Assembly: GCA_038501625.1 (NCBI GenBank)
Contig: JAZAYU010000923.1
Span: forward strand, 1-64,000
Source of the DNA: Corbicula japonica
Lineage: Eukaryota > Mollusca > Bivalvia > Venerida > Cyrenidae
Direction: 5' to 3'
Length of the DNA stretch: 64,000 nt
Part shown: positions 3,110 through 64,000 of the stretch, one piece after another
Position numbering within the stretch: the stretch's first letter is position 1
Layout of the letters: each line of letters begins with the position of its first letter
Program-made: the position numbers and the translations under genes
Notes under the pieces: generated by a model
Database searches by the model: none
What the model was told of the DNA's origin: nothing
Seen by the model: the letters and a program-made list of their open reading frames with translations, nothing else

Positions 3110-3324
3110 TCAGTTTTGAAAAAGGTCCCGTAGTTTTCCGAGGGCTTCCGTGTTCGTCTCGCAGTTATATATACCTTTGTTTTCGTAATAGGCGATGTCA
3201 ATAACATCAGCGAGATTTTTATACTCTTCGACCTGCATGAGTTTGGATTTCGAAGATTCCCTTGGAAGTTCTGTCTTAGGAACACAATGTACGATTAACA
3301 GAACTAATTGCCGATACTGGTCCT
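3110..3324 (-). CDS. M1 exon 4: second half of cytoplasmic domain and stop
   Basis: Acceptor TTTCATACAG; 215 nt in phase 1 to a TGA at 3112-3110. The translation holds LVLLIVHCVPKTELP, SSKSKLM and ENKGIYNC, matching M2 exon 4 (FLVIVHSVPKNELP, SSKTRLM, EQGIYKC). A reverse-strand AATAAA lies at 3093-3088, about 17 nt past the stop, a plausible poly(A) signal. Confidence 0.78.
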
Positions 3325-6300
3325 CTGTATGAAAGAAACAGAAACGGTTTGCATTAATTGCAGACACCATATTTATTTAACAGATTTTAAACTCACAAAG
3401 CATATATTTTGAAAAGTAAATATTAAATCTAAAGACAAAGCGCATACACTTAATGCGTTTGAGAGGGATTTGAAGGTCTGTGATTAGAGTACTAACAAAT
3501 ATCTCTTTTATTATGAAAATATCTACTTGTTTAGAATTTACTTGTAAGAATGAATTTGAAATCATTTTACTCGTCTGATTTTAGAATACATTTTTAAAAA
3601 TGTTTTTTCTACAATAATTTGGTTTTGTGACGTTGTGCAACCGTATATGCTCTTAATGCAATTTGCTTTAGCGCAGACAAAATACACGCTACGTATGCAG
3701 TTATTAAAATACTGTACAGGTAGTATATACAGAAAACCCCCCGGATCTGAACCAAGTTTGAAAATGGCAATTGTAAAGTTAAAAAAGTGGCTGAAACATG
3801 AATTCGAGCCCACGAGTTTGCAATCATATTCTTGAATCACCGACGGCGCTAAGCAGGCTCTGAACTTTTGACCGTTTAAAACTGGGTATATACATTCATA
3901 TCGATTTACAAGTAGACCGTAAGGTTTACGAAAATTGCCGATTACAGGGTCAAATGCAAGAGTGCCAGGTCAATGTTGTTGCACAAGTGGCTAGTCTAAC
4001 AAGAAAGCTATTACCACACAACAGATACGATTTATAAAGTTGCTGAAAACGATTTTGTTTACCTTGAAACTTTGCCAATGCATTTGCAACATTCGCTTCC
4101 AACCTAGAGTTGTGAATGAGAACTACACACAGTTGCTTCTGAGATACTGGATTGGCATCGATCGTTATTATTCCTTTGCTTTTGAGTGCCTTCGCAAATT
4201 CAGAGATCGTATCTGATAGAAGAGGTATAACAACAGGTATCTGTTAAATAGACAAAAAAATCAGCAAACAAACAAACAAACACATAATTGTATATCCTGT
4301 CACCAGAATGATACTAATGAACTAACCAGTTGCGGATTTTTGGGCTTCCGTGATATGGAAAAAGACGAGTTGGGAAATTAAGTCACATAACGTGACATAT
4401 ATGATAATATTGCGGGCTCAACTTTTCGGCAGTTATTAAAGTGCGTATTGTAATCTACGCAATCTAGTCCTGTACTGATTACAAGGCAGTATTAATAACA
4501 TAGGTAAACAGCGGCAAATTCAAGCCATACGATTTAATTCAAATAATGATGACAGTATAGCATACGCATGCGCAAGAGATTAGCCTCATTTGCATATTTG
4601 TTTTTACCAGTGTAAGAAAGAAATATATTTCACCGAGTGAGGTCCAGAATTCGTATTTTCACGAGTGTCGAAGCCACGAGTTAAAATACATAATCATGGA
4701 GTTCACGAGTAAAATATATTTCTATCATTTACTGGTAAAAACAATTTTTTCCTTTTTTTATGCTTTTAGTGCAAATTTTGCGTGAATTTGACAGAAACTT
4801 GCAAGAAATGGCGCCAAAACCGCTTATTTATGAGGTGACGTCATGACGTCAAATATACGTGCGTTTTGGTACCAACGTGAAAAAATCTGTGAAAATAAAA
4901 AGGATATTCCACTGTTTGAAAACAGTAAAATACCACTTTTATTTCACCGGGAAAATTCTATAATTCACTGAAATGCGTAAAATAAATATGTGTTTAATAT
5001 GTAAACGACTTGGATTTCTTTGACCTAGAAGTGTTTCTGTATGTAGCGGTATAAATTCTATTAATTTATGCATACAATTCATGATTTTTTTACATAATGT
5101 ATGGGAAGTCACTTTCAAAACGTGCTGGTATTTTCCCACACAACGATTTGTACATGGTAAGGTGCTCTGAAGAAATAACTTTTATGTTGGTAGGTTAAGA
5201 GTTACTGTATTAATTTGAACTCAGTAAAGGTATCTCTTTTACGACTTGGCAAAAAAGACCAAACTAAATCTTGAGCAAAACCACCCCCTCAAAAACAATG
5301 GTAGTGAAAATACGTAACGCACACTTTCAAAGAGGAACACTCGGGAATATTTGTGGTCTCGCTACTTTAAAGTTTTCCTTAACTTTCCTATTTCATTATA
5401 TTTCAAAAAAAATCTAAGGGTGATCTGAAACAAAGATAACTTGCACAAGTAATATGCAGAATGTTTATTAGTAGCGGTTGTGATTGAGAAAAAAAACACA
5501 CAAAAAAACAGCACGCAATGATGCAAATGCTACATCAGTTTGAAACGATTTAAAATTTGCATTTTATCAAGCTGTCTACAAATTTGTTTTTATTTTTCGG
5601 ATAATTAATATTTTTTTTTGTTTTCTAGTCCGTTTGCATAAAATTCACAACAACAATAACACCAACAAAACAATACGTTAAACCTAGAAGTTTTTTTTAT
5701 AACAATAAAACAAACTTCATCAGAAATGACGAAATATTTAGTTACATAAACTGTTATTCTGCTAGTTCAGATAGAATAAACTTGCCTTTTGTTTAAAGTT
5801 AAAGTAACAATATTGTCAAGAAGGAATACCAAACATATGTGTGTTTCTTTCCGTGTGACACAGTTGCGCCACCCAACCAAGACAAGAGGGCCATGTTGGC
5901 CCTAAATCGCTCACCTTAGTACCCCAGGGCCAACATTTAAATAATGTTGGTAAAGGTTCTCTTCACAATACTCAACACGAAATATCTAAGGTCTAGTCGC
6001 ATAAATTTCAGAAAAAAAATGTTTTCCTATATAAATCAATGTAAACTAAGAGAACCCTGGGGCGTGGCCAATTTTTGCTCAGGGGACATAATTTGAACAA
6101 ACTTGGTAGACATCCACTAGACAATTCTACATACCAAATATCTAAGCTTTAGGCATTGAGGTCTCCAGTAAGAAGTTTTTAAAAATTGACTTTTTACATA
6201 TGAAGGGCCCCCGGGGCAGGGCCAATATTGACCCAATGGCCAACTTTTAAACGATGTTGGTAAAGCGTCTCTTTACAATACTCAACTCAAAATATCTAAG

Positions 6301-8524
6301 GTCTAGTCCTATTAGTTTCAAAGAAAATGATTTTTTATGTTTTCCTATATAAATCAATGTAAACTAAGAGAACCCTGGGTCGTGGCCAATTTTTTACATA
6401 TAAAGGGCCCCCAGGACGGGCGAATTTCGACCCCAGGCCGAATATTTAAAAAATTTTGGTAAAGGGTCTCTTCACAATACTCAACACGAAATATCTTAGG
6501 TCTAGTCCTATTAGTTTTGGAGAAAAATGATTTTTCATGTTATCCTATATAAATCAATGTACACTAAGAGAACCCTGGGGCGTGGCCAATTTTGGCCCAG
6601 GGGACATAATTTGAACAAACTTGGTAGACATCCACTAGACAATTCTACATACCAAATATCTAAGCTTTAGGCATTGGGGTTACCAGTAGAACGATTTTAA
6701 AAGTTTTCCTTTTTTACATATAAAGGGCCCCCAGGACGGGGCCAATTTCGACCCCAGGCCGAACATTTAAACAATTTTAGTAAAGGGTCTCTTCACAATA
6801 CTCAACACGAAATATCTTAGGTCTAGTCCTATTAGTTTTGGAAAAAATGATTTTTCATGTTATCCTATATAAATCAATGTAAACTAAGAGAACCCTGGGG
6901 CGTGGCCAATTTTGGCCCAGGGGACATAATTTGAACAAATTTGGTAGACATTTATTAGACAATGCTACATACCAAATATCTAAGCTTTAGGCATTGAGGT
7001 TTTAAAGTTTGCCGTTTTCGCATATTAAGGGCCCCCGGGGCGGGGACAATTTTGACCCCAGGGCCAACTTATAATCAAAGTTGTTAAAGAGTCTCTACAC
7101 AATACTCAGCACCAAATATCTAAGATCTAGTCGTATTAGTTTTGGGAATTTTTTAAAATGTTTTTCCTATATAACTATATGTAAACCATGAGAACCCTAG
7201 GGCGTGGCCGATTTTGCCCAGGGGACATAATTTGAACAAATTTAGTAGACATCAATTAGAAAATGCTACCCACCAAATATCTAAGCTGTACGCATTGTGG
7301 TTTGTGAGAAGAAGATTCTAAAAGATTTTCTATATAAGTCTATGTAAAATGAAGTAACCCCTGGGGCGGGGTCAATTTTGACCCCAGGGAAATAATTTGA
7401 ACAATCTTTATAGAGTTCCACTAGAGGGTCCTAAATGTCAAATATCTAAGTTCTAGGCCTTGTGGTTTCAGACAAGAAGATTTTTAAAGATTTTTCTTTA
7501 GGTTGCCATGGCAATCAAAGTTCTGCATGGAATTGATTTCTTTGAACAACTTTGGTAGAGCTTTAGCAAGGAACATCCGTGTCAAGTTTCATCAACTTTG
7601 GCGCAGGGGTTTAAGAGGAGATGTTGCTTAAAGCAAAAGTTGACGATGCACGACGCACGACGGACACAGGGCGATCCTAAAAGCTCACCATGAGCACAAG
7701 TGCTCAGGTGAGCTAAAAAAGCACAGAATATTTAAATAATTTTTAAGTATTGAAGTGAAACTGAAAACATACTTACTTCAATCTTGCATTTTTTACAACA
7801 ACATAACAAAGCCATAACCAAGAGCAGAGGAATTCCACACAGATATAAAACCAAATTAAAATCCAACTCGAAGAAATCACAACTGGTTACAACAAATTGC
7901 CTATATATATTTTTAACGGTGGAAGAAATCCATCTGTATACATCAAAAAAGGAATAGTATGCGAGACCTGAAATAATTAAACAAGAAACTGTAAGCATTT
8001 TCAAGTACTTTGAACTTTATTAAAATAATGTCTTGTTATTGATTATAACCGTTTTAATATAGCTGATTAAAATCAGCGTTTCTACTAATTTTTAGTAACT
8101 GGTTTTCATCCCATTATAGAAAACATTAGACATGTCTGTTATCACAATAGTTAAATAATCAAGCAATAACTAATGAATTACAATGAAAGTGTTTTGCTTT
8201 CCTTTTATCTAGTCCAATTAACATTATTATTATCATAACATAATTTAGAAAAAACACGCATCGCAAAACAGATCACAAATTTATTTTATCTTATGCATAT
8301 ATTTTAATGTTCAATTTTAATTTATTTTATTATCACAGTGATTATCTAGTTGCTCTCAAACCGGCATTTAATAAGCATTTCCATAACTGTCCAGGAACAC
8401 GCTCAATCAAACCAAGCCTGCAATATTTTCATATTTGACGTATTCAGTTTAATCAGAAGTTATAGATATATTAGAAACTTATGTCTATAACATTTTTCAG
8501 ATTATAATAAAACGTCTTACTCAT
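3110..8524 (-). CDS. Gene M1: small single-pass membrane protein with TIR-like cytoplasmic domain, unassigned family
   Basis: I do not recognise this gene by name. Four exons read on the minus strand (8524-8521, 7967-7777, 4240-4063, 3324-3110) join with consistent phases (1, 0, 1) to 588 nt, a protein of 195 aa. Residues 1-39 are a short N-terminal part, about 40-58 a hydrophobic segment (LVLYLCGIPLLLVMALL), then a Cys/Lys stop-transfer stretch (CCCKKCKIE). Residues 66-195 look like alternating strands and helices, including IPVVIPLL, SEFAKALKSKG, CVVLIHNSRLE and LVLLIVHCVPKTELP, ending with GIYNC and a final helix. The layout recalls a compact TIR/Rossmann-like fold, but no diagnostic TIR box is clear. 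Gene M2 at 45980-52176 has the same exon plan and shared motifs (NHSRLE/HNSRLE, VPKxELP, SSK, GIYxC), which argues that both are real. The 5' exon supplying only ATGA is the weakest part of the model. It lies divergent to the IFI44-like gene. Confidence 0.6.
4063..4240 (-). CDS. M1 exon 3: first half of cytoplasmic domain
   Basis: Acceptor TTTAACAG and donor GTAAAC flank 178 nt (phase 0 in, phase 1 out). The translation runs from IPVVIPLLSD to NALAKFQ and contains SKGIITID and CVVLIHNSRLE. It aligns with M2 exon 3 (ITTVIPCSAP to NALSQFR), most clearly over the NSRLE/HSRLE segment. Confidence 0.75.
4605..4860. repeat. Palindromic repeat with tandem CRE octamers
   Basis: ACCAGTGTAAGAAAGAAATA (4607) is mirrored by TATTTCTATCATTTACTGGT (4717-4736), with ACGAGT/ACTCGTG symmetry between. 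To the right lies TGACGTCATGACGTCA at 4836-4851, two abutting perfect CREB/ATF octamers. It lies in M1 intron 2. Confidence 0.65.
5883..7720 (+). repeat. Long tandem-unit repeat element with GGGCCAT/CAGGTGAGC ends
   Basis: Begins AGAGGGCCATGTTGGCCCTA followed by TCGCTCACC and ends TGCTCAGGTGAGCTAAAAAA. Between lie five to six degenerate units of roughly 330 bp with CACAATACTCAACACGAAAT, AATCAATGTAAACTAAGAGA and GGGGCGTGGCCAATTTT. The terminal part has CGACGCACGACGGACACAGG. GGTGAGC and GCTCACC give complementary ends. This architecture is common in bivalve genomes. It lies in intron 2 of M1. Confidence 0.85.
7777..7967 (-). CDS. M1 exon 2: membrane-anchor exon
   Basis: Acceptor TTATTTCAG ends at 7968 and donor GTAAGT starts at 7776 (minus strand). 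The 191 nt enter in phase 1 and leave in phase 0. The exon encodes a moderately polar lead, the transmembrane helix and the basic CCCKKCKIE end. The M2 counterpart at 51935-51766 has the same phases and also ends in a basic stretch before the donor. Confidence 0.7.
8340..8470 (+). repeat. Dispersed repeat family B (AACCGAGCCTGC) copy 1
   Basis: Contains AATAAGCATTTCCATAACTG, GCTCAATCAAACCAAGCCTG and ATATTTTCATATTTG. The family also occurs at 18237, 39062, 46438, 59245 and 62803. It lies in the M1 intron between exons 1 and 2. Confidence 0.7.
8521..8524 (-). CDS. M1 exon 1 (start codon, proposed)
   Basis: On the minus strand the sequence CTATGA is followed by donor GTAAGA at 8520-8515. ATG plus A joins in phase 1 to the next exon (GTCTCGC), giving MSLAYYSFF. 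The preceding bases AGCCGTCTAAGGAT resemble the M2 first-exon sequence CGTAGTCTAAGGAT, which supports this being the homologous exon. In M1 the M2 reading frame is closed by a stop, so only the last four bases would be coding. Confidence 0.4.
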
Positions 8525-8599
8525 AGCTAATGGGTCATCCTTAGACGGCTAAACAAAACACTGAAACTGAAAAATGTGATATTTTTTAATAAAAAGAGA

Positions 8600-17328: not shown

Positions 17329-17421
17329 GATAAAAGTTGACTTGGTATACAATCCTCTCTCACCTGATAGTTAAGTGACACAGAAAAAGCCCAAATAGTT
17401 TAGTTTGAATATTTGTAAAAT
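17329..17421 (+). promoter_or_regulatory. Putative core promoter and 5' leader of the IFI44-like gene
   Basis: GATAAAAG at 17329-17336 occupies the place of TATAAAAG in the paralogous promoters at 57038 and 60617. It is followed by GTATACAATCCTCTCTCACC (17345-17364), nearly identical in the paralogues, and then ATGGGAAA. The TATA-like site is weaker here. The block begins about 50 bp after the end of a Tigger-like element. Confidence 0.5.
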
Positions 17422-17449
17422 ATGGGAAATATTTTGGAGTCTGTAAAAG
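17422..17449 (+). CDS. IFI44L-like: IFI44-like gene exon 1 (MGN start)
   Basis: ATG at 17422 opens a 28-nt coding exon (MGNILESVK plus one base) with donor GTATAA. It is homologous in length, phase and upstream sequence to the exons at 57150 and 60729 (MGNISSTQK). The shared 28-nt length and upstream block GTATACAA(C/T)CCTCTCT support the call. Confidence 0.7.
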
Positions 17450-20400
17450 GTATAAAATATTATATGAATCATTTTTTAATAAAATAACATTCAAAAGATA
17501 CAGAAAATAAATATTTTAATAAAAGCTGAAAATACAACAAACAATGTTAACTTTTTATAAGATACCTTTTGCAGTAATTAAGGAAGAAGACACACGAACA
17601 CAAATTGTACTAAGAAATGAAAACTAAATAGAGCGAAACAAATATATTTTAGCCTGTAAAAATGTAACAGTTTCCAGTCATACGTGTTTTATACGAGCGG
17701 CTTATCTTTTTTCTCTTTACATTTTGGCTACGTCACTATCAAAAATTGTGTTATGATTAGTAACAGATGCAATTTTTGTTCGCACTTAAAATGCAAAATA
17801 ATTTATGTTAACTTAAAGATAAACTGACAGATTAATACTAACTTTTTTAATTTTGTATTAAATTTACTTAATATTTAATTCTATACATTTTTTTTTACCA
17901 AAGGATACAGTTTTCATGAGAAATATTTGAATTTATTCAATAGAATTTGGATCGAATATTTCACAGTACGTTAAATGTAAAGGGAACAACTTTTGTTTAC
18001 CAATGACGCCATTGGCATGAGGTTGCCATGATATGTATCTGTCATAGTAAACGTGACAATAGCGTCATTATGTGTCCGTAATTTGCTAGTATATTATTGT
18101 TTTTGCATTTCCACATACTATGTAGACACACTTATATCAACTCCGATGATGCTGCCTCTGTCAATCGGCGTTGATATGCATACCATCGTTTGGGATGGAT
18201 CGAAATTGTACTATTTAATGGTGTAATTACTGAGTTGCGCTCAACCCGGGGCTAGGCGGCGTGGGCAGTAATAAGCATTCCCATTACTGCCCATGAACAG
18301 GCTCAATCAAACCGAGCCTGCAGTATTTTCATATTTGTCGTGTTCGGTGGCTTTCAAAGTTCCCTTCTCATCTATTTGTAATAGCGCCTTTCAGCTGTGA
18401 CATCAATTATCGCTAGCAGAGTAATTAAGAAGGTCAAAAGGCTAACCTCGGACAAACATTTACTATGCTGTGTTTCTAAACAATGGAAAACCGATGTCTT
18501 ATTGCAAGTTAAATATTAATTGAAGATGAATTTCAATGTGGTATTATCAAAGATAATTCTGTATAACAGGCTAAAACACTGTTTGCAGTTTAGATATCTT
18601 ATGAATAAGTTACTAAGAAATGCTAAAATGTTAATAATGACAATATGGCCACACAGCTCTATATTAATTTAGTCAATTAACCTATATGGTGTTAAATTTC
18701 AATTTATAATAAATTAATCTATTGTGGCTTATCAAACTTTACTAAAGTAGAACACATTGACTATTTATTCCATGGAATAGGCTTATATTCTATTTGTGAC
18801 CAGTGTAGATCCAGATCAACCTGTCAAGTGTAATCAGGATCTACACTGTTTGCTTGTTGGTCAAAATAATCTAATGCATCCATAGGCGAACACTGAAGAT
18901 CCAGATTAGACTGCACAATGTGACGCTGATCGGGATCTACAATGGTCGACATGGGATCAAGTCATATCTATCATGTCCAAGGAGTAAAGGGCTATGCGTA
19001 AAAGGTTATGCGTCGTGCATTCTTATATGTTTTTAAAACACATGTAAATTTGTTGTCAATTGAGTTGTATGCTAAAATACGAATAAATGATCTTTGTGCA
19101 TGTCCAATTTAATGTCACATGTGGAGATTCTTATCGTGGTCCGGTTCCTCCTTTTTCAAAACAGAAGAAATCTGATGACCGACATATTATAATCGACCAA
19201 ACTTGAGCTTTTTAGCCTGAACACCGGTTAACAGTGACTCACGGTCCGGAACAGACAATTTAGACTATGCCACCTGTTACTAAGACGCATACAAAAAGAT
19301 AGAGTAGTGAAGTAGTGATGTTTGATTGCTTGATATATAGAGAAGACGTTTACCGGAAAAGACATTAAACCAGATAATCATGTTTCTTCTATACTTAATT
19401 AATAATTTTATTCAGGACGTGTAGAAATAATGCAGTTATTTAAGTATCGTCAAACTGGATAACTATGTACTAAAATGAATGCCTCCTAGGTCATAGAGAT
19501 ACCAAAGAACCATGCGTATTTGTACACTTAGCAGACAAGCGACGCTTATTTACATAGTCATTATGCATTACCAACGTTCATATAGTGTAGTTCTAGGTAG
19601 GTCCGCAAACCAGGTCAAATTAGGTCAGTGACCGTTAGGAGACGGTACAAGAAATGTATTCATATGTTGATGCAGTTGTTAATTTCACTTGAACGTTGTG
19701 CTGATCACATTGTTTTTGGTTTTGTTAGGACAATTGTCTCTGAAAATGTTACAACGAAATTGTTTTGTTTTTAATTAATTCTATGACCAAAATATTGGCA
19801 TAATGTCACTGTTTTAAAGGTTTTTCACAAGTATTCATTCTCAGCCGGAAAATTACTTCAAAGGGTGGTGGTCTTAAAGTTTATTCTAAACAATCGCCAT
19901 TTGCATAAAAATGTTATTGCTTGTGTTTCCAGATGTCCATCTGCATATATAAAGACCTCTTCGTTCATAGTACAGCAAACAACATGAAAACACCCTATCA
20001 GGACAGCGTGGGCTAGAGAGAAGTTTACACTAATTTCAGGACAATGGGATTTAAAGGATAAACCCTACACGTTTCACCATGTTCTCAAACCACATATTCA
20101 CTAGTGGCATTCATGTTGTTCAACTATGATAATGAAATATTGAAACTGTCTAACCCCAATATTTTATTTATAGGAAGGAGGAAAGTTCTCAAGAAACCTT
20201 GGAGAAGTTATAAAGTCACAGAACCTAAAGATGCTTGGAGTGATGAGGTATTTGTTCTTGTTAAGAATTGCAATTAATGTTCACACTGACTTTAAAAACA
20301 CCGAATTTCAGACGCTTGGAAACAGAGTAGTTGATGATGTTTAGAGTGCATATTTGTCAATTAAACGGACATATAATATTAACTGTTCGTAATTTGGTGT

Positions 20401-26400: not shown

Positions 26401-29400
26401 CGGAAACAGTTATTTTTGACAATTCAAGGGCCATAATTAAGGAGTGCCTGGGGGATTTGGCTGGTTATAGAACTTAGTCGAGATATTATGCACACCAACA
26501 TATTCACTTTGATAAAGATCAGATGAAAATTCTTTGACTTAGAGAGCGGAAACAGTAATTTTGGACAATTCAAGGGCCATAATTCAGGACTGCCTGGGGG
26601 ATTTGGCTGGTTATAGTTAACTCTTGTCTTTTCGTAATTTGGAAATTATTGACTTTTTAAAAATTAGATCTAAAAGTCTAAGTGATTTCACTGTTAAATG
26701 TATCTAAGGTCTCCATTAGGGTATGCCAAAGAATGTTGAAGTTATCTTAAGAAATTTAAAAAAAAATGGTTGTAGGGCAACGTTTTTCACTTCAGACGTA
26801 ATTTTGATCCAAAAAGATACAAATTAAGAATAAAAAGAGATCTTCTTCTTGAAATGATTTCATTCTAAAGTATTTCGAAGGTTGCATAAAGTAACTATTG
26901 TGCTTGCAACATCTGTTTAAACTTTTCATCAGATCTCGTGGTAACCGCAGAACCCAGCTTACTTGAACACGCCTGTAGGCACAATAATACAGTTAAAAAT
27001 GCGCGTGGCCATGTGATATGTCTTTTTGATTTCCAGCTGGCAGGGCGACAGTCTAAAAAACAATTTTCACAAGACAACAACGGCGTTCCATACTTTTGTC
27101 CTAATTAGAAACCACGTTTTGGAGTGTCTGGTTTTTTAACGAAGAATGTCTTCAGACGTACTGATCGCCTTTGAGAAATCAGAGCGTCTGGATGATTGAG
27201 ACTACAACATTTAGAAGACTTTTCTTGCAAATTGAGTAACGGAATAGCATTCTCAAGCTTTAGAAGGGCGGATTTGTCTAAAGTGACCACGTCCGGTGCC
27301 GCTGTTAACCGGTGTTACTCTTCAAAGTTCAAGTTTGGTCCATTATCATATGTCGGTCATCAGAAAGACCGACATTTAAATGTTAAGAGTTAACATTAAA
27401 TATGTACACATAATTATTACATCATCATCATCATCAACAACAACAACAACAACAACAACAACATTAACAATAAACAGCAGTTCTTTTACTTTCATTTTAA
27501 ATCTAAATTTAATTTTGTATTCACAGACTGAAAACAAATTTTATAATTATTAGAGATTTCAATAGATACAGATTCATTTGAATTTTGATTTTTTACTCCA
27601 CACTGTTCTGTGCTTTAGGTCATTTTGATTGATGAAAATTGGTCAAGTTTTGCAACAAAAAACTTTTGTGTCTGTTGCATTTTAAATGTAAAGAAAAACT
27701 ATAGGAAGCCAGAAAATAATTGATGAGGATGTATGACATTTGAAAAGTAATAAAGTTTACTGAGTACATCCCGTGACTTTGGACGATCTGACCCATCAAA
27801 AATTTTCAACGGGGTTAAATGAAACCTGTTTTTTTCCCAAAAAACATGTGAATCAAAAATCAATATGATTAAAAGAATTGTCTAAAAGTGTGTACAAAAC
27901 TGCAGAATTGAAAAATCTAGAATCCTTTTATATCAGGTAAGTTTCGGTACATTGTTTCGAATATAGTTCATCATCCTGAAATTTGTTTATGTGAGTATAA
28001 AACATCTGCTTTTGGTATAGGTTAGCTTGTCGATACTTTTACTACTCATTATTGCTTAAAGCTCATATGTGAAAAGTTTAGACCAGTCAGCCTGCTCATC
28101 TGTGAAGTCTTTCCAGAATTTACATCATTCAGTCTATTAGATTCATTATTCTGTTCTTACCAAGATTTTTACATTATAGACTAATGTTTACGCTGATATG
28201 TATCTACATCGTTCCCACAACACGTGTTATATCAGCTGTATCTATGAAGTGAAATGTAAACTATTTAAATTAAGGTAAAATCCTAGTTTTTTAGAATTTG
28301 GATGCAGTGTGATGACTGTCATATTAAGATGTTTAAGGCATTTAGAGGAATCAAAAAGACATCACAATTGTCCATATATATGTAATGAATTGTAATTTTG
28401 CTATATGAAATATATATTTGTAAAACGCATAATTATTTTATTTTGTTGAAGTCGTAAATGAAAAAAAAACGTTATTTAATTTAAAACCGAAACAATTTAC
28501 TCAAAAGACAAAAGATATTGCCCTTTCTGGGGAGCTTATCGATTCCGATAAAGCAACCTATTTATCAAGCCGGGCCCACACAAAAATGTTGATCAGACAG
28601 CCCGTAATCATTACTGCATGACATCGGTAGCTGATTATTTACTGATAACAATACTGAGTTTGTTTCAGTTCCGTGAAAAGCTGATTGAGGAAATCAAAGG
28701 CTTTACAGCTTATGGAGGCATTGAATACGCAAAGCTACAGCTACTGGGACCTGTCGGCGCTGGAAAATCGTCATTTATCAATTCTGTCAAAAGTATTGAT
28801 AAAGGTGATATTGCCACGGCAGCACTAGCGGGTGCCGTAGGTTCAAGCTTCACGACTCGGGTAGGTTCCTTTATAAGATTAGGAATGATTTTGTAATTTT
28901 CTAACATATATCTGTTTAGTTTCCACAAAGTGTTTATACACACTTTGCATCTGTTTACACACTAGACAAAGCTTACAAATATAATTTATTTTCTTTTATC
29001 CGGTATTTATGCGAAGAATACTTAAAAGATAATAGACCACTAAATGGTTATAGCACTCTGTGATTATTTAATAATGTTTGTAGACGATACGGTGTATATT
29101 TCAGTACAAGCCCTTTCTTATTGATAGATAATAATACGTTTTTAAAAATTACCTAAAATGCAGGAAAGGTTGGCAATTGACATTAAAATTTGCTTTTGAA
29201 ATTTAAGTCTTTATTTGTGTCTGAAATTTTGATATGATTACTTATGTTTTCACTTTCTGTTCACACATTATCCTGGTTTGACTTAATTCAGTACCTGCCG
29301 GCAAAATAAAGAATTAGTGAAAGCATGGTTTTACTGCTGTCAAAGAATGCTTCTTGGGTCTCTCAATTCTCTTTCAAACCCTCTTTGAAATAAATCCACA

Positions 29401-45979: not shown

Positions 45980-46188
45980 CTAAAAATGTTCCCGTATTGT
46001 GTTGAGAGCATTAGTGTTTAAGTCACATTTGTATATACCTTGTTCTTTGAAAAATGCCATATCGACAATTTCAGCGATTTCTTTAAACTTGTCCAATCGC
46101 ATGAGGCGGGTTTTCGAAGAATCTCCAGGAAGTTCATTTTTAGGAACGCTATGTACGATTACCAGAAAGATCTTATGGTACTCGTCAG
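45980..46188 (-). CDS. M2 exon 4: second half of cytoplasmic domain and stop
   Basis: Acceptor TTAAAG; 209 nt in phase 1 ending in TAG at 45982-45980. It encodes KIFLVIVHSVPKNELP, SSKTRLM, KEQGIYKC and a last helix ending REHF. This exon is the most similar to its M1 partner. Confidence 0.8.
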
Positions 46189-49100
46189 CTTTAAGAACGA
46201 AGGAAAAGCATTTAAATAAATAGTCACTTTATTTAACGATTACAACAACAAAAGATGCATCATTTTCATCATTAATTGTTTTGAATTGAAAAAGAAAGCA
46301 ACATACATGCAGAACATTTGCCCTTAAAGCGCATGTCAGATAATGATGTTTTTATATGAAATGCTAGCTAAACGGCCAAGATTCGGCAAATATACGTACA
46401 AAAAAACATATTTGGGAGTACTGGGGTAGTATTGAGATGCATTCAACCACAGGCTAGGCGGTGTGGGCAGTAATATGTATTTCCATGAAAGCCCATGATC
46501 GGGCTCATACCGGGGCAGCAATATTTTCAAATATGTCTTTTTCAGTGGTTTTTAAGTTTATTTTTGATTAATTGCTGTTTTCAGAAATATTTTAAATTTG
46601 TTGGAAATCAAATTTATATTTACTTACCTCTAAACTGTGAAAGTGCATTATCAATATCTGTTTCTAACCTGGAGTGGTTAAGGCAAATGACTAACACTTT
46701 ATCTTTAACATAAGCACTGCTGACTTTATTTAATCGTATCCTTTTGCGTCGAAGTTCATTTTCAAAATGCATAATAGCAGGTGCAGAGCAAGGGATTACA
46801 GTCGTTATCTATACATTAAAAGAAAGAAATATTATATATATGATACTCTTAGTGTGTATAACAAGATACAAGATACAAGACACTTTATTTAACGTCGGTT
46901 TGTACAATAAAAAACATTAGCTATAAGCTATTGTCCGACATAACAGAAATCGTTTAACACATAGACATAAAAAGACAATCAACGAAACCTGTAAAAAGAA
47001 AGTTACGACAGTTAGAAAATAAAACACAATATTGATAAGACTGATGTTCTAACATATAAAGTACATCACAAAGGTTGCACATAAAATCACATAAAATTAT
47101 ATACATTTACACATGACACATGAACAGGTCTGACCAGTCCAGGTCTGGATCATTCTGGTAAACTCCTTGTAGTTCTTACATGATTTGGTAGATTGTTCCA
47201 GACCCGGGCTGCCTCAAACCTGAACGATTTTTGCCATATGTTGTTGTTCGGACTTTTGGGACTAAAATGGTATTTACTGTTTCTAAGAGTATAGGTTGAT
47301 TGTTTGAATTCAACAAGATCGTGTAGATAAGGGGGAGATAAACGGTAAAGGCATTTATATGTTTCTATTGCTATGGTTCTAAGTCTAGCAAGATGCAAAG
47401 TTGGCATATTTACTTTTTCTAGTCTTCGTAGGTTGAATTAAAATCATAAAAAACAATTCTAAGTGCACGGTGTTGAAGTTTCTCTAACTTTTCAGTATTC
47501 TGTTTACTACAAAAATGCCATATAATAGGACAAAAGCTAAAATTTGACCTGATAAAAGATTTATATACCAACAGTTTACATTCTACAGATAAAAATTTAC
47601 TAAGTCTTAAAAGTACATTTAACTGACCAGCAGCTTTTTTGCATAGCCGGGTAATATGTGCATCAAAATTCAATAAAAAGTTTATATCTACACCTAAGAG
47701 TTTAACCTGATCTTCACATGCAATATTTACATCATCTATGTTAAAACATTTCAGTTGGTCGTGGGTTTTCTTACCAACAGCTAAGGACTGAAACTTATCT
47801 GAATTGGCTTGCATTTGATTTATGTTAAACCAATTAATGAGAGTTTTGCTTTCTTGTTCTATGGTGGATTTTAAAACACAAATATTAGGATGGTTAAAAG
47901 AAAGAGTGTTATCATCTGCATAGTTATAAAGTGTAGATAAAGTAAAACATATCGTTTATAAAAATGTTAAAAATAAGAGGTCCTAAATTAGATCCCTGTG
48001 GAACACCTTTGATAGTTTCAGTCCAAGAGCTATGTACTTTACCTATTTTAACCCTTTGTTTTCTGTTAGTTAAATAATTATGTACAAGTGAAACAGAGTT
48101 GTCTGACAAGCCATATGCTTTGAGTTTAAGAGCGATGAGGTTATGTGGGAGGCAATCAAATGCTTTTGACAAGTCCATAAGTATGGCACCCAAATGTTCA
48201 TTGTTATCTAGCGCCATTTTCCAATCTTCTATCAATCGCAAAAGTGTTGTCTGACAACCGTATTTCGGACGAAATGCAGCTAAAAAGTTATTAAAGATAT
48301 TATCAAAATATGTACAGAGTTGATCATTTATAACTTTTTCAAAAACTTTTGACGTCGATGAAAGGATGCTTACAGGTCTATAATTTTTCATTACAAATGG
48401 GTCATCTTTCTTATATAATGGGGTTACTTGGGCCTTGTTAAGATCATCAGGAAAGATATTAGTTTCAATCATTTTATTAACAATGCGTGTTAGTGGTACA
48501 CTAATAGACGGAGCAGAGCAATTAAGGATTTTTGGTGGGATATTATCGACACCGGTGGCCTTTTTAGGGTTTAACGACTAAAGGGACTTAGATATTTCTG
48601 TTTGGGTAACAGATTGGAAATGGAACTGGTTGTTTCTATTGTGGGTTTCAATTATTTGATACACTAGGGTGAGTTTGTGAAATATTTTCCTGAACATCGA
48701 TGCCTATATTTTTGGCAATATTAACATAGAAATCGTTTAGTTTTTTCGCATACTTCTGATTGATTTGATATCAAGTTTTCATTTTCTTTAATAATGATTT
48801 CTTGAGAACCACGAGAGACTGACTTTTTAGAAAGGAACGGTTTGATAGTGGGCCAGAAATCCTTGGATTTAGGCCCACCACCACAACGTTCGAAAAAGTA
48901 AATTTTGATCGATTCACGTTTAGCTTTAGTTTTAAGGTTTCTTAATTTTTTATATTCGTCCCAATTTCGACTGGTTTTATGTTTCAGATATGTATTGTGA
49001 GCCATTCTAGTTTTGTAAATAATTTTACGATATTCTGAGTTCATATAGGGTGGTGGGTTTTTCCGTGGGTACTTCTGTTTAACAGGAGCATGTTCATCCA

Positions 49101-50085: not shown

Positions 50086-52176
50086 GGGGGTGTTCATTTA
50101 ATCAAGGACATGATATCAAAAGGTAAACGCTTAATGTAGATACTGTGGTATCATTATATTTAGCGATGGCTTAATTTTCGCGTATTTCGCGCTCGGGTCA
50201 GTGCGCGAATTTTAAAACCTAAGCTAAAAGTCAACCATCTAGTTCCACATCTATAAGTTTCCGAAACGTGCTAATGTCCGAATAGACCTACACTTCGTAT
50301 TTAGTTGCCCGTATCGCTATGTGATATAAATTTGAGGTATTGAATATTTAAAATGTTAGAGGAAATAAAATAAGTTATTATTGTAAAATTTATTTTGAAA
50401 TATTTTAAATGATACTTCAAAATTTTAACGACAATTTAGTCCGGGCATTTAGGTCAGGTCACGTTTTAGAAACCAGTATCGTTGTCATCTCATTCTGTTT
50501 ACTTTCACACGTATTTTTGTTTTCTACTGGTAACATGTTTGTTTCCATTTGACAATTCTGATAATTTTGAGACGTTCTTGTTTCTTTTGACAATTTGTGA
50601 AGTATGAAGACCATTTGGAATATTTCTTTTCGTAAGGCAGTCGAGTGTTTTGATAGAGTGTAGTCGGAAGCAATACTGTAGCGTTTGAATGTTTTTGAAA
50701 AGTTCAATTTTAATTTACAACCCTCTGTTTTGAGTAGTTGTTTTACAATCCCTTGACACTTAGGAAAATAAAACGGGTACGCAATTTAACATGCCAATTA
50801 TGTTATGAATGGTCCAGAAATATGGATCAAACGGGTCCCGTGTCAATAGGCGTCCCGAATAAACAGCGGTCCGATAATTGACTAACAAAGGAAGTGGTAA
50901 TTGACCCCCTGCCAACTGACACATGATTAGCTCGCATGTTCGAATAAATAATAGGTGTTGATAACGGATCAGTCAATTATCGGTTGTAATATATATTTTT
51001 TGAAAAATTGGTTTTGCGCGAATTTACGTCTGCGCGAAACAGTCATTTTCGGCGATTGCGCGAAATTTCGTGCCAGCGAAATTAAATGATAACACAGTAT
51101 AACCTTTTCGGTAAAGTGACAAAAAGTATTGCACTACTTGATATTATATATGATTTCTATAACTTAACGAAGCAATTTTAATTCCTGTAGATGATAACAT
51201 CTTTTCAAATATCAAATAATTTGTGCATGTGATATAAGTACAGGAGATGACTTTGTTGGTTTTTTTTTCAATTTTTCTAGGTAATATAAATCAAAGCTTA
51301 TATTAAAGCGGGCTTGTATTAGAGGTAGTGGCGTGGTAATACAAGATTCAGCAATATGCAAATAAACGTGTTTTATTATAAATAAAGATGATTAGAAAAA
51401 CAAATCATACTTCAGTGTTTGAGTATGACAAAACTTAATTTTTTTTTAGTAAATATCGAAAGAATTTTAGAATTCGTCGCGCAAACACTATAAACTACTC
51501 CTAATTTGATAAGGATCACTTATAAGATTTCGTTTATTTTTATCATAAGTTTGAAACATTAAACTATTTGCTGTGATTCTGAAAATTCGTTTTTAGACAT
51601 TAGCTTTGTGCCAGGTATGTCGTTAGAATAATCTACTAGTAAATGTATGTAATGGGTTTACCATTAAGAAGATCTTTAAGAAATAAAAAGTGATCCCTAT
51701 CAAATTTTGAGTAGTGTAATTCAATTCAAGTTTAGGAATCTAAAAACGAAAAAAAAATCACTGACCTCAAGCTTTCTTCGTCTAGGAATACAACGAAGGA
51801 CACTCATGGCCAAATTGTAAAGGCGACTACAGAGAACGTAGCACACATTCCAAACAAATGTGAAGCAATAACTTATCCATCTGACCAAACACGAATTACT
51901 TTTTTTAATTGTTTCAATGATTCTCCATATAAAGCCTGAAAAGGTAAATTGAAAACAATCAGTACCCCGCGGTCATAGAGTAATAGCGACCACACCTTTG
52001 TTTTAAATTTGCGTCTTAAAAAATATTATCATCTTAATTTCAGTTACATGTATTCCATATTAAATTCATATTTTGCTTTCCGCATTTAGGTTTGAACATT
52101 TACCTTTTGCTTTGCTGTTTATCCTTAGACTACGTCGTCCATTGTTGGAGAAGGTCATCAAGGTTATTCTGGGCAT
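45980..52176 (-). CDS. Gene M2: paralogue of M1, membrane protein with TIR-like domain
   Basis: Family not recognised. Four exons on the minus strand (52176-52104, 51935-51766, 46808-46628, 46188-45980) join in phases 1, 0, 1 to 633 nt, a 210-aa protein. Residues 1-38 are basic (MPRITLMTFS, GRRSLRI), about 41-62 are hydrophobic and aromatic (WISYCFTFVWNVCYVLC), and 71-80 are strongly basic (LRCIPRRRKL), so a single-pass topology with the C-terminal domain in the cytoplasm is likely by the positive-inside rule. Residues 82-210 form the shared domain: ITTVIPCSA, KVLVICLNHSRLE, FLVIVHSVPKNELP, GIYKC and a final helix. M1 and M2 differ much in the membrane part but little in the C-terminal exon, so the soluble domain is the constrained part. 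The 5.0-kb intron 2 contains a decayed LINE. It is divergent to the second IFI44-like first exon. Confidence 0.72.
46438..46560 (+). repeat. Dispersed repeat family B copy 4
   Basis: CAGGCTAGGCGGTGTGGGCA, CCATGATCGGGCTCATACCG and GCAATATTTTCAAATATGTC. It lies between M2 exons 3 and 4. Confidence 0.65.
46628..46808 (-). CDS. M2 exon 3: first half of cytoplasmic domain
   Basis: Acceptor ATGTATAG and donor GTAAGT flank 181 nt (phase 0 in, 1 out). The translation runs ITTVIPCSAPAIMHFENEL to NALSQFR and includes KVLVICLNHSRLE, homologous to M1 exon 3 with one extra codon. Confidence 0.78.
47419..47930 (-). pseudogene. LINE reverse transcriptase, YADD and thumb region
   Basis: The frame begins with NYADDNTLSF, the catalytic Asp pair, and continues through MQANSDKFQS and LGVDIN to SFCPIIWHF. 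A one-base loss at about 47415 separates it from the C-terminal part (NMPTLHLARLR). Confidence 0.85.
47924..48545 (-). pseudogene. LINE reverse transcriptase, palm region
   Basis: The frame holds the RT blocks: LYKKDDP, NYRPVSILSS, the D of MDLSKAFD, and KGVPQGS. A one-base shift near 47930 moves the following YADD block into another frame. Confidence 0.85.
48721..49290 (-). pseudogene. LINE inter-domain region between endonuclease and RT
   Basis: A 189-codon frame with APVKQKYPRKNPPPYMNSE, then a basic stretch (KTRMAHNTYLKHKT) and FWPTIKPFLSKK, typical of the linker between endonuclease and RT in jockey/CR1-like elements. Confidence 0.75.
49312..49940 (-). pseudogene. LINE endonuclease region
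   Basis: Frames with MLRNNDRKRPLIGL, NINSIRYKF, VSETKIDDTF, DARGGGIMVF, YRPPS and IIGDMNYDLF follow the apurinic-type endonuclease block order. Frame breaks lie near 49905 and 49527. The 5' end beyond 49990 is not resolved. Confidence 0.75.
50053..50092 (+). repeat. (GT)n microsatellite
   Basis: GTGTGTGTGTTTGTGTGTG followed by a G run, between the LINE 5' end and the 50141 MITE. Confidence 0.9.
50141..51099. mobile_element. MITE with TACTGTGGTATCATT ends
   Basis: TACTGTGGTATCATT at 50141 is inverted at the right end as AATGATAACACAGTA, followed inward on both sides by GCGAAA/TTTCGCG-rich sequence. TA edges suggest a mariner-type target. The interior is non-coding. Confidence 0.7.
51766..51935 (-). 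CDS. M2 exon 2: membrane-anchor exon
   Basis: Acceptor CCTTTTCAG and donor GTCAGT flank 170 nt. The translation has an aromatic and Cys-rich hydrophobic stretch followed by IPRRRKLE. Phase 1 in and 0 out, as in M1 exon 2. Confidence 0.7.
52104..52176 (-). CDS. M2 exon 1 (start)
   Basis: ATG at 52176-52174 opens 24 codons plus one base, then donor GTAAAT. The phase-1 end matches the phase of the next exon, completing a Gly codon. A second in-frame ATG lies at residue 7. Confidence 0.6.
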
Positions 52177-53947: not shown

Positions 53948-53998
53948 GTTAGCCGGTGTTCAGGTAGAAAGCTCAAGTTTGGTCATCAGGATGACCGG
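53948..53998 (+). repeat. Dispersed element, third copy
   Basis: GTTAGCCGGTGTTCAGGTAG then CTCAAGTTTGGTCATCAGGA, a shorter copy of the family at 19160 and 27285, near an AGTCGGTCAT element at 52597-53157. Just upstream, CGAGTAAGAGTCTA-like sequence occurs three times (53846-53910, 54310). Confidence 0.6.
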
Positions 53999-56493
53999 CA
54001 ATTAGCCCTATAAAAAAGCATCTGCCACGTTCAATAACACGACGGCCTGCTTTATAACAGGGCCATTATGATTAACACTTTGTCGGCCCCGGGCAAAAAG
54101 GTGTAAATGATATAAAGCCCGCATTTGAAGCAATTTGATTGGCTTATAAGGCAGGGCCGAAAAAGTGATAAAGATTTCAGCAAGAAACTCTAGGAAATGG
54201 CAGCCATATTGTTTTCACTCGGTCTATTTTTCGACGCAGAGATTTTGCGTGATAAAATAAACTAAGTTCCCAAACATTAATTGATTGACGTTTATTTACT
54301 GAAAACTACTGAGTAAGAGTCTAAAACCGAACGTGTTATAAATTTACAACGTGAAGATTTCACAAATACACAATCATTTTCTGGCTTGGATCAAATACTT
54401 GTGGTTTTTTAATGATATTGTCAATAAATTTGTGATCTGAAATTGAGCCTGTTATTTGTCCTCGGGTCAGTCGTATTAGCCCTCGCCCTTCGGCCTCGGG
54501 CTAATACGCCTGCCCTCGAACAAATAACAGGGCCAATATCAAATCACTTATTATTAACATATATTCTCGCCGGACAAGTCAGAAGGTGTCTAAGCGTATG
54601 AACAATCACCGATTTGATATCAATAGCTATATAAAGATCCTGCTTTTTCTACACTGATTGTTTCACATTTGAATTAAAAATATCACAGTCTAAATGACTT
54701 TAGTTTCATGTCAATTGATAAAGTTCATAACAATATGGAGTGACTTACTGGACTCATAAACTAGGAACAGCTTTTTTTCCAAAGGGTCTACATTCAAAAA
54801 TTTTGTATGGCTTATCATGAAAAAGTTTAACGGTGCTGATTATATTGATTATTAATGGATTTTGTATCAACCTATACTTTTCCTTTATTAAGTCTCTTCG
54901 CTTTACAATATAGATGAGATAATGAATTAATCATCTGCCTTATGTTTAGAAATGTCATTTCAAATGGGTGGTTTCAAGATTCAATCACCTCTAGGATATA
55001 ACTTGTGCTTTTTTGCTGTGGGCGTTCCCTAGGATATGCAGGTTGTATATTCTCAAAACCCTTGTCAGCTCTAAAATTCTCCACGTACATTCAATCAGTT
55101 ATGTTATTAATCACGCAATTTGAACACATATCTTTGTAAATATTATGCTGTGCTCAACCAGGACCTAAGCGGTGTGGGCAATTAAAATGAAATTGTATTT
55201 AAAGAACCATTTTTAAATAAAAAACATAATAATTAAATGCTTTACAGATAAACTGAAGAACTTTGTGATTAAAAAGAGAAATGTTCACTAATGTATATTT
55301 CTTTACTCCGAGCACAAATTGTCATCGCGCACAAATGAAAACAATTTTTAAATTATATATCTTTTTAATCTCATTTATCGTTTTTGAAAAGATTTAAAAT
55401 AAAGATTTGTTTAACTGTAGTAACCATGTTTAACATTCATCATTTGACATTGGTAAACTGAAACGTGATATTGTAATTCAGAACTATTGCACAAAAATAC
55501 AAATGAAATACACCGCATAATTATGTGCAGATGGAGAAATGGAGACGTCCATGGTTCTAACCATGGAACAAACCTGGGGTCTGTTTGCTTTCTTTCAAGA
55601 AATGCTAGCCATCTGCTTTCAAAATGACTGTATAATTGCTGCCAGATAAAATTAATAGACTTCATCGTGTATCAAAATTTGCACTGAACCAGGAATATGT
55701 CATTTCAAGTATGATTAGTAAGGACTCTGTCTGTCGATATCTTGAAACCTTAATTTCTTAACAATTTGCAGTCTATCCTTAAATAGGCAATCTGTAAACC
55801 TTTGATGTTTAATATCCAGTTTAAAATCACGAAGAGTATGTTTGTGAAAGGTCTTTAAAATACACTTACTTGTCTGATACTAGCCCTAAAACATGATTGA
55901 ACAATAGACTTTAAATAGCGGAAATAAGTAGGTTATTAAAAGTCAAAACAATACATTGCATAATACATTATAAAAGGCTCATGCAATCAACTGGTAGTCA
56001 GAGGTATGCTGGAAATATTTACATAGAATGTTAAAATAAGTAATGACATGTCTTAAAACCTATTTTATGCTATGAATATTATTTCCCCCTGGCTTTTCCC
56101 TCCGGGCTTTTACGAACGACTGACTCTATTCTTGGCAATGGGCTTCCGAACCCATCATTCAATATTTGAAAATAAATTGTCTCATGTATCAGTGGAATTC
56201 AAGATGATATTTTCAATTTTAACAAGAATTAATAGTTTTATTACTATAGTACTGTACTCCTTAGTCGAAATGCTTACTAGATTGAACTTTCAACTGAAAG
56301 GCAGTAAAACAGGAGTACGGTTGAGGAGAACCATGGTCAATGTCCCTAGGTGCTTAAAATATGGTTATTTCACTCTTTTATTATAAAGTTTCGGTCCTTT
56401 TAAGCTATTTTGCTGTATTTTTGTGAATGCGATTTCTATAATCTTTTAGTCAGTGATTTTCACTACGGTAAAGAATTTAAATAATTTTCAGAG
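53999..56493. other. Intergenic between M2 and the second IFI44-like gene
   Basis: Contains the hairpin element at 54.4 kb and a short family B fragment at about 55150-55190. Frames at 55411-55665 (minus) and 56072-56386 (plus) resemble no family and lack supporting splice sites. Confidence 0.45.
54430..54550. repeat. Long hairpin repeat around CCTTCGGCCTCGGG
   Basis: AAATTTGTGATCTGAAATTG...CCTGTTATTTGT folds on ACAAATAACAGGGCCAATAT...AATCACTTA, with an inner stem CGTATTAGCCC/GGGCTAATACG. The stem is about 55 bp long with few mismatches. It probably belongs to a non-autonomous element starting near 54035. Confidence 0.75.
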
Positions 56494-57037: not shown

Positions 57038-57149
57038 TATAAAAGACAATGCGTAACACGATGTTAGTATACAACCCTCTCTCACCTGTTACATCATTAA
57101 CATAGAAAAAGGACGCATTTACAAGTTAACGTAAAAGTTTTCTTAAATC
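57038..57149 (+). promoter_or_regulatory. TATA-box promoter of second IFI44-like gene, copy A
   Basis: TATAAAAG at 57038-57045 lies 112 bp before the ATG. About 25-35 bp downstream is GTATACAACCCTCTCTCACC, conserved with 17345-17364, so the start site probably lies in or near it. Confidence 0.55.
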
Positions 57150-57177
57150 ATGGGAAACATATCTTCAACACAAAAAG
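57150..57177 (+). CDS. Second IFI44-like gene, exon 1 (copy A)
   Basis: ATG at 57150 opens a 28-nt exon, MGNISSTQK plus one base, with donor GTATGT. Length, phase and promoter match exon 1 of the complete IFI44-like gene. Gly2 and Ser6 fit the N-myristoylation pattern MGxxxS. No P-loop exon of this gene is visible to the right; introns in the first gene are long, so it probably continues beyond 64000. Confidence 0.6.
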
Positions 57178-59577: not shown

Positions 59578-60077
59578 NNNNNNNNNNNNNNNNNNNNNNN
59601 NNNNNNNNNNNNNNNNNNNNNNNNNNNNNNNNNNNNNNNNNNNNNNNNNNNNNNNNNNNNNNNNNNNNNNNNNNNNNNNNNNNNNNNNNNNNNNNNNNNN
59701 NNNNNNNNNNNNNNNNNNNNNNNNNNNNNNNNNNNNNNNNNNNNNNNNNNNNNNNNNNNNNNNNNNNNNNNNNNNNNNNNNNNNNNNNNNNNNNNNNNNN
59801 NNNNNNNNNNNNNNNNNNNNNNNNNNNNNNNNNNNNNNNNNNNNNNNNNNNNNNNNNNNNNNNNNNNNNNNNNNNNNNNNNNNNNNNNNNNNNNNNNNNN
59901 NNNNNNNNNNNNNNNNNNNNNNNNNNNNNNNNNNNNNNNNNNNNNNNNNNNNNNNNNNNNNNNNNNNNNNNNNNNNNNNNNNNNNNNNNNNNNNNNNNNN
60001 NNNNNNNNNNNNNNNNNNNNNNNNNNNNNNNNNNNNNNNNNNNNNNNNNNNNNNNNNNNNNNNNNNNNNNNNNNNNN
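59578..60077. other. Assembly gap of exactly 500 N
   Basis: An unbroken run of N. The round length indicates a placeholder gap inserted at a scaffold join, not a measured distance. Confidence 0.99.
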
Positions 60078-60616
60078 ATCTAAACATATCGAAATGAACA
60101 GTATTAGATTGTTGGTCATTCTCAAAGGTAAATAACATATTAAGGAACTTACGTAAATGTTTAAAAGATATATCCTCTCTCTCTATATATATCTCTCTCT
60201 CTTCACCTCCACAATGATAAGACTTTAAGATTTTTGCATACCGACACAAGGGCTTACTAAAATGTTTTACAAACATTTTTCTTAATGTCTAAATACAACT
60301 TTTGGATAAAAAAATTCTATCTCTAAATATTGACTCAGGTACAGAATATAAAAATTATACAAAAAAACCCATAAGAAATGTATCGAACACAATATTTAAC
60401 TATTAAATCCTTCGACAAAATATGTGTAGAGAATACCTACGTTCAAAACTTAAGTGACGGATTAAACATCCTTTGTTTATAAATATTTACATGTCTTCAA
60501 ACAGGAATATAAATATTACACCATTTACAGCATAAGCGATTGACAAATTTCTCCGGCACCGTAAATCAAAACAATATTTAATTCCAGGAGTAATTGTTTA
60601 AGTAAACAACACCGAA

Positions 60617-60728
60617 TATAAAAGACAATGCGTAACACGATGTTAGTATACAACCCTCTTTCACCTGTTACATCATTAACATAGAAAAAGGACGCATTTA
60701 ACAGTTAACGTAAAAGTTTTCTTAAATC
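60617..60728 (+). promoter_or_regulatory. TATA-box promoter of second IFI44-like gene, copy B
   Basis: TATAAAAG at 60617-60624 and the downstream GTATACAACCCTCT block match copy A at the same spacing, 112 bp before the ATG. Confidence 0.5.
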
Positions 60729-60756
60729 ATGGGAAACATATCTTCAACACAAAAAG
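60729..60756 (+). CDS. Second IFI44-like gene, exon 1 (copy B)
   Basis: The same nine residues, MGNISSTQK, and the same donor GTATGT as at 57150, inside the second copy of a 3.05-kb duplicated segment after the assembly gap. It is probably the same locus represented twice. If a real duplication, the gene has two alternative promoters and first exons. Confidence 0.55.
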
Positions 60757-63125: not shown

Positions 63126-64000
63126 GAAACAATAAGCGAATATATAAAGTAATTCTTGTTTTTTTGCATTAATTTATCTGAGATTTTTAAACTTCGCATC
63201 TAAAAACATCTAATAAGCTACAAAAACGAAACGAAACGAAAACACTAATACACTATCAAAGGTTCCGGACTAATGTGATTTTATAGTTATTACAGCAGTT
63301 ATAACTTCATCTTAATCAATATCACTTTATTTGTTTCATTAGCATTTCTTCATAAAAAAAAACCTAGTCCTGTATCTACGTTATGTTCAAATCGCGTAAA
63401 CACTTGGTAGTTCCATGTGCAAATAGGTCAGCAAAACTACAATTCTACTTAAAATATCATGAAAACTCAATTCGACCTCCCATCCGTTTATAAACAGTAC
63501 AAGTACTTTATGCAGAAAAATCCTTAATAGCCTGGTGCAAACACACTGTCATGTAACAGCTGCCCTGTACAAAAAATGGGTACCCTGTAGCAGTCCGCAA
63601 GATGGCGACCAGTTAACAGACAAAAAGGTATGTGCTATTTTGTTTTCCAGTTTGTATGCATACAGTAAGGTATAGACTTGTATACTTGGATCCTATATTG
63701 AAAAGGATTGTTGATTGATTAAATGATTAAAAAAATTGCCCGTGTGTCTGTTTGGCCCTGTAATTGATAGAAATAAATGGCCTTATTGGCTATTTCAAAA
63801 TTGAAGCGATAGAGACGACTGATTTCGACTTTTTATTCTATGACAACTTTGTTGTTCTCGTGACATTTGATATCACTTTGAAGCGCCTCTAATTGCCTAT
63901 ATTGTGGTAAAATTATTAAACTGAACAATTTTGTTTTGTTTTTAAGAAAATGCGATTCAAACAAATTGTTGTTGGTACCCGGCACCGCCCCTCGGATTAT
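63126..64000. other. Right end of the window
   Basis: Single-copy sequence after the duplicated segment. Apart from the YY1-type site at 63599 I see no exon; the expected exon 2 of the second IFI44-like gene (Pro-Trp-Arg motif) is absent here. Confidence 0.5.
63599..63627 (+). promoter_or_regulatory. Putative YY1-type start region with 5' splice site
   Basis: AAGATGGCGACC (63599-63610) matches the YY1 element often found at metazoan transcription starts. The only ATG there is closed after four codons (MATS). CAAAAAG followed by GTATGT at 63628 is a strong donor, so a non-coding first exon is possible. The gene would lie beyond 64000. Confidence 0.35.

Follow-up and report, generated by a model that had tools for sequence, protein, structure and literature searches.

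Is a gene that repeatedly lies beside an IFI44-like GTPase gene in a bivalve genome only its neighbour, or have the two been copied as one unit and do they act together? The question is raised by a stretch of Corbicula japonica DNA of 64,000 nucleotides (the window), comprising bases 1-64000 of the 123,477-base contig JAZAYU010000923.1 in an assembly of 1.07 Gb. Along this contig, the genes were found in the order M1(-) A(+) M2(-) B(+) M3(-), where A and B are IFI44-like and the M genes encode predicted membrane proteins of a family without recognised relatives. For M1 and for M2, the direction of transcription leads away from the IFI44-like gene that lies 5' of it, and exons 2, 3 and 4 of the third gene, M3, were located at 94-117 kb of the contig. 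With regard to the architecture, it is highly probable that a cassette of two divergently transcribed genes exists in many copies and that the contig carries one array of it.

Both members of the cassette were found in related copies. M1 and M2 have four coding exons each on the minus strand, open reading frames, GT-AG introns and the same phases of 1, 0 and 1, and their proteins of 195 and 210 amino acids are 37% identical. IFI44-like A (17422-40682, plus strand) is complete, with seven exons and 298 amino acids. IFI44-like B (contig positions 60729-81842, plus strand) also has seven exons, with the phases of A, and encodes 294 amino acids which are 62% identical to A; only its exon 1 lies inside the window, and the gene body is located beyond the window end. 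An earlier interpretation made from the letters of the window (the sequence-only reading) had proposed that M1 and M2 are paralogues and that the IFI44-like members of the two cassettes are likewise paralogous, and both proposals agree with these gene models. The same interpretation had placed a second IFI44-like first exon at 57150 and 60729. The gene itself has been found to be real and complete; the two positions most likely show one exon in two haplotypes, i.e. a false tandem duplication, because the 3.1-kb blocks 56494-59577 and 60080-63125 share 91.2% identity, with 6% substitutions and 29 insertions or deletions of at most 10 bases, and dovetail at an assembly gap, ending and beginning at the gap edges as an unmerged overlap of two haplotype contigs would.

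In the whole assembly, 38 M genes were found with M2 and M1 as queries, seven of them by the M1 query alone (weakest E 0.0053), and the search with A yielded 69 clusters of IFI44-like matches. Same-strand matches were merged within 8 kb for M and within 26 kb for the IFI44-like genes, and the rows of the window's contig for M exons 1-3 were omitted, these genes being already counted by exon 4. By a rule on the query parts covered per match, which was set after viewing the matches, 37 clusters were classed as fused (the G4 part and the last part fall within a single match), 21 as split, like A, and 11 as undetermined; the last two classes together are termed non-fused (32 clusters). The IFI44-like search scored 132 of the 309 first-look candidates, and partners of unpaired M genes may be missed by it. 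A non-fused cluster was located within 60 kb on either side of 20 of the 38 M genes and on the 5' side of 16 of them, where uniform placement would give about 0.07. The orientation was divergent in 15 of these 16 pairs (binomial p 2.6e-4, with pairs treated as independent, which they are not fully). When 22 M genes on ten contigs of known length holding both families (non-fused class) were placed at random within their contigs, divergent pairs averaged 2.7 over 5,000 runs and never exceeded 9, whereas 14 were observed. Moreover, an M gene was present within 60 kb of 17 of the 32 non-fused clusters and of 4 of the 37 fused ones (Fisher p 1.9e-4), and divergent pairs occurred on ten contigs besides that of the window.

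Repeated or haplotype sequence could make one or two cassettes appear as many in an assembly. The dovetail duplication at the gap is of this kind, parts of certain M loci show 85-95% identity, and between contigs the difference is below 20% for some exons of M and of the GTPase. However, M1, M2, both paired M genes of contig C137 and the paired M genes of C31 (2.49 Mb), C674 and C262 (355 kb) each differ by at least 39% from every other tested M, and A and B share just 62% of their residues, which makes an assembly artefact a very improbable source of the pattern.

The divergence of the partners was compared in a Mantel test between M exon 4 distances and GTPase P-loop exon distances for 14 pairs, in one of which the partners are separated by 82 kb; C504, C284 and C241 were omitted, their P-loop exon being not at hand or their GTPase being of the fused type. 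The correlation was found to be 0.656, a value reached in 0 of 20,000 permutations. After pruning of near-identical or doubtful pairs it was 0.559 for 12 pairs (5 of 20,000) and 0.693 for 11 pairs (0), and without the window's contig it was 0.664 for 9 pairs (1 of 20,000). In the M tree and the GTPase tree, both weakly resolved and midpoint-rooted, the partners fall into the same two groups, one with the pairs of C923, C137 and C31 (2.49/2.53 Mb) and the other with those of C55, C262, C674, C619, C514, C1076 and C31 (2.43/2.38 Mb); support for this split was 89/95 for M and 100/98 for the GTPase. That M and the IFI44-like gene have mostly been duplicated together is therefore a well supported reading of the recurrent divergent pairs and the correlated partner distances, and the earlier proposal of a two-gene unit duplicated in kept divergent order agrees with the pairs on the ten other contigs.

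Joint duplication may also be passive. Neighbours in an ancestral tandem array could have been copied together by segmental duplication in the absence of any functional tie, and this would suit two families which are both expanded, partly in arrays, with unpaired copies of each; the matched exons of partners are also 12 to 54 kb apart, a spacing that needs no shared regulation. Against this stand the partners that remain paired though the M proteins of the cassettes are as low as 27-39% identical to M1, and the orientation preserved in all pairs except one. Passive linkage is considered a serious candidate, although a somewhat doubtful one.

The search with the A protein retrieved 692 proteins at E <= 0.001. 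Among the best 120 of these, the named ones were mostly interferon-induced protein 44-like or similar, the rest being hypothetical or named by domain, and along 85-97% of its length the GTPase part of A could be aligned with named IFI44-like proteins of vertebrates and bivalves at 29-39% identity. The G1 (P-loop), G3 (DxxG) and G4 (TKxD) motifs are present in both genes, as GPVGAGKSS, DTMG and TKID in A and as GPVQAGKSS, DAMG and TKID in B. The top match of A, P0004, also starts with MGN, aligns along the entire length of A and is 59% identical to A and 71% to B. In comparison to IFI44 and IFI44L, A starts with M-G-N and has the G4 part and the last part in separate exons. It also differs by the lack of the N-terminal TLDc domain, which is carried by the Mercenaria P0075 and Potamilus P0061 IFI44-like proteins and is present in many, not all, IFI44/IFI44L members among the matches listed; no match to TLDc was found in A, the exons of which begin MGN-KPWR, and likewise in P0004. 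A is therefore named IFI44-like and, as judged from these matches, is a GTPase of a TLDc-less branch and not IFI44 proper. The N-termini of A, B and P0004 suggest that the GTPase is possibly N-myristoylated. A candidate M-G-N exon at 47628 of C1076 was found by searching that very pattern and is not counted as evidence. Two of three copies of a dispersed element (10270-10902, 29718-30348 and 36581-37313, 88-91% identical) lie inside introns of A, and an inverted partial copy is present at 11376-11829.

The M proteins consist of a hydrophobic segment, which is strong in M1, followed by basic and cysteine residues and then by a domain of about 130 residues. In the alignment of 14 M proteins, 11 columns are invariant, including Ser-Arg behind a predicted strand, His ending the next strand, Asp, and Cys-x-x-Asn, which comes after a nearly invariant Tyr. 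M is probably a membrane-anchored protein with a cytosolic alpha/beta domain, and its N-terminus would be outside and its C-terminus inside. Protein searches with M1 and with a three-sequence alignment, which require shared 5-residue words and can miss distant members, recovered only P0001, P0002 and P0003 and no relatives in named bivalve proteomes. P0001 and P0003 resemble M1 (51% and 46% identity) and P0002 resembles M2 (72%), and therefore the split into two M types probably predates the genome of the window. The 72%-identical relative of M2 and the 71%-identical relative of B come from other contigs, perhaps not of one species.

Relatives of M were found neither in viral contigs (query alignment A2) nor in prokaryote genomes (query P0001), and the comparison of the M profile with the IFI44 profile gave no relationship (probability 0.2%). 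No Pfam family at E up to 1 was shared between any of the 14 M proteins; 13 families matched one M each (best Methyltransf_31, 1.6e-4) and were taken as chance because no second member has them. The sequence search against PDB gave nothing convincing, with weak ribosomal-protein matches at E 0.2. The AlphaFold2 models had a mean predicted local distance difference test score (pLDDT) of 59.6 and 46.0, and no confident fold was obtained from models or fold searches. Foldseek and VIA matches to Arf GTPases, response regulators and phosphoribosyl pyrophosphate (PRPP) synthetases reflect a generic alpha/beta arrangement and were not used; the same applies to fold-search matches to the TIRAP TIR domain (E 0.41) and a part of the bafinivirus replicase (E 0.02). 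An expanded family of possible immune relevance may accordingly be undescribed.

Homology between the first exons of M1 and M2 was rejected, since they share a 10-mer and their best local alignment was equalled by 161 of 500 shuffles. A region upstream of M2 matches the N-terminus of P0002 (61% over 33 amino acids, E 6.8e-6), and neither an in-frame ATG nor a GT donor in the right phase was seen by eye in the window copy. An earlier M2 start in this region, about 1.3 kb from B, is possible. Remains of a retrotransposon of the long interspersed nuclear element (LINE) type are located in M2 intron 2 (47422-49893, minus strand), with a reverse transcriptase in several frames (Pfam E 1.2e-21), and a local repeat array of long units lies within M1 intron 2 (5921-7499).

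A and B also resemble each other outside their coding exons. A 118-bp stretch including exon 1 is 68% identical between them, and a 19-bp element upstream of A has 3 matches in the window, two of which are probable haplotype copies, where 0.01 would be expected at up to three mismatches. These features, together with the divergent gene order, could mean that the partners share only regulation, i.e. a common immune-responsive chromatin domain or enhancer, and that the function of M is unrelated. However, the conserved stretch is found at the GTPase starts, and nothing of similar strength turned up near the M starts when the two intergenic regions were compared. Interferon-response-like sites GAAANNGAAA were considered and rejected, as 9 are present in the window in comparison to 7.4 expected and there is no enrichment. 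Sharing of regulation only is judged distinctly improbable.

The positions of the exons, upstream elements and gap are listed in Table 1. Further repeats of the window are local arrays at 25815-26616 (units of about 150 bp) and 31945-32050 (21-bp unit), and a short dispersed repeat at 18228-18386, with copies at 62803-62887, 59252-59325, 8369-8445 and 46430-46558 which are 76-91% identical to the 18-kb stretch, and an additional inverted partial copy near 23.4 kb.

Table 1. Positions in the window of the exons, upstream elements and assembly gap.
Feature	Position	Strand	Remark
First coding exon of M1 (ATGA with GT donor after it)	8521..8524	-	Tentative gene model from sequence; start of P0003 (MNHTYY) compatible, weak support
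M1 exon 2	7777..7967	-	Transmembrane segment, then CCCKKCK
M1 exon 3	4063..4240	-	Conserved domain, first half
M1 exon 4	3110..3324	-	Domain second half and stop codon
IFI44-like A exon 1	17422..17449	+	MGNILESVK
IFI44-like A exon 2	20174..20247	+	KKPWR
IFI44-like A exon 3	28669..28860	+	P-loop (G1)
IFI44-like A exon 4	31544..31687	+	G3
IFI44-like A exon 5	35214..35394	+	
IFI44-like A exon 6	38107..38240	+	G4
IFI44-like A exon 7	40539..40682	+	With stop codon
M2 first coding exon	52104..52176	-	Model of the sequence-only reading, without independent homology support
M2 exon 2	51766..51935	-	Hydrophobic segment
M2 exon 3	46628..46808	-	
M2 exon 4	45980..46188	-	
Candidate earlier M2 first exon or decayed relic	55763..55861	-	Matches N-terminus of P0002
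Exon 1 of IFI44-like B, first probable haplotype copy	57150..57177	+	MGNISSTQK
Exon 1 of IFI44-like B, second probable haplotype copy	60729..60756	+	Gene runs on to contig position 81842
Assembly gap (500 N)	59578..60077		Dovetail repeat on both flanks
19-bp element TACAATCCTCTCTCACCTG	17348..17366	+	56-74 bases upstream of A start, common to B
19-bp element, B haplotype copy 1	57070..57088	+	
19-bp element, B haplotype copy 2	60649..60667	+	

A number of observations weigh against a pair that is duplicated, and acts, together. On the 5' side of 22 of the 38 M genes no non-fused partner was found within 60 kb, and the search located no M at up to this distance from 15 of the 32 non-fused clusters. 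Contig C131 holds six M genes at 58-491 kb with no divergent partner within 60 kb, some of them near fused-type IFI44-like genes, and a seventh weak match; these may be a branch that lost or never had its partner. One M gene (C619, 99 kb) faces a same-strand gene. The C31 pair at 2.43/2.38 Mb, 54 kb apart, combines a C55-like M with a C1076-like GTPase, i.e. mixed subfamilies, and therefore some partners have been reshuffled. Paralogous arrays are non-independent events, and haplotype copies are probably present in the assembly, so that the copy counts are upper bounds. At the protein level, the hydropathy of M2 is borderline for a membrane segment, and of A, B and P0004 only B has Ser at the position where it is favoured for myristoylation. 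Finally, the sole tie of M to immunity is its IFI44-like neighbour.

The immune reading has been drawn from the responses of the IFI44 family, and excerpts of the literature describe several of these. In one oyster family exposed to ostreid herpesvirus, the relative level of IFI44 was 24.1 against 1.3 in the control; a second family gave 10.2, 33.7 and 47.3 against controls of 2, 1.3 and 1.2, and such genes showed no consistent pattern in the same study (PMC4111845). Among the genes of the sustained antiviral response that follows poly(I:C) is oyster IFI44 (PMC7064767), IFI44 was raised in mussels injected with Vibrio (PMC6401078), and in the sea anemone Nematostella, where it responds to antiviral stimulation, it is listed among shared antiviral effectors (PMC13319465). 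A Manila clam table gives 11.07 for one IFI44-like gene and -25.60 for another IFI44 gene, values for which the treatment column was not checked (PMC7430831). The function of IFI44 is still termed unclear in two of these sources (PMC4111845, PMC6401078).

The duplicated cassette can be combined with these responses in one scheme. M would be anchored in the membrane, and the IFI44-like GTPase, targeted to the membrane via its M-G-N start, would act where M sits. The conserved S-R, H, D, C and N residues of M may form a ligand site or an active site, which the GTPase would switch or assemble. The partners would then act jointly in antiviral or antimicrobial defence, and the copies of the cassette could diversify against different threats. 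A joint immune function of M and the GTPase is proposed tentatively and falls a little short of an even balance, and the explanation as a whole, a duplicated cassette with a joint defence role, is regarded as evenly poised. In a bolder and unlikely version, the M family would be the first known to carry a new immune receptor or effector domain bound to the membrane, and every GTPase would assemble or gate its own M partner there, giving animals a diversified two-component defence system with a logic like that of paired plant NLRs. The literature search gave no description of an M/IFI44-like pair or of the M family in the titles and abstract openings listed. Having accompanied an IFI44-like gene in many duplications, M offers a direct clue to the partner or pathway of IFI44, and the pair can be tested as a candidate immune module of two parts.

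Three known systems can be compared with the cassette. In bidirectional-promoter pairs, transcription starts lie by convention within about 1 kb of each other. The coding starts of the cassettes do not lie close together, with 8.9 kb between M1 and A and 5.0 kb between M2 and B; the latter distance would shrink to about 1.3 kb with the possible earlier M2 exon. M resembles TIR-domain membrane adaptors in a low-confidence model, where strands and helices are predicted to alternate after a membrane helix, and a TIR identity was suggested by this order. It was not adopted, since profile and Pfam comparison did not support it: the M profile matched the TIR domains of TLR2, TLR1 and MyD88 with a probability of 0.2% (5 M proteins) or 0.06% (14 M proteins), and none of the 14 members matched TIR in Pfam at E up to 1, with the limit that a very distant relation would escape such small profiles and a low-confidence model. 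In plant NLR immunity, sensor and executor genes occur as head-to-head pairs. The cassette differs from these in its protein families, in its much longer distances and in the lack of evidence for a division into sensor and executor; what it has in common with them is that two partners are held in a kept divergent order and have partly been duplicated as a pair.

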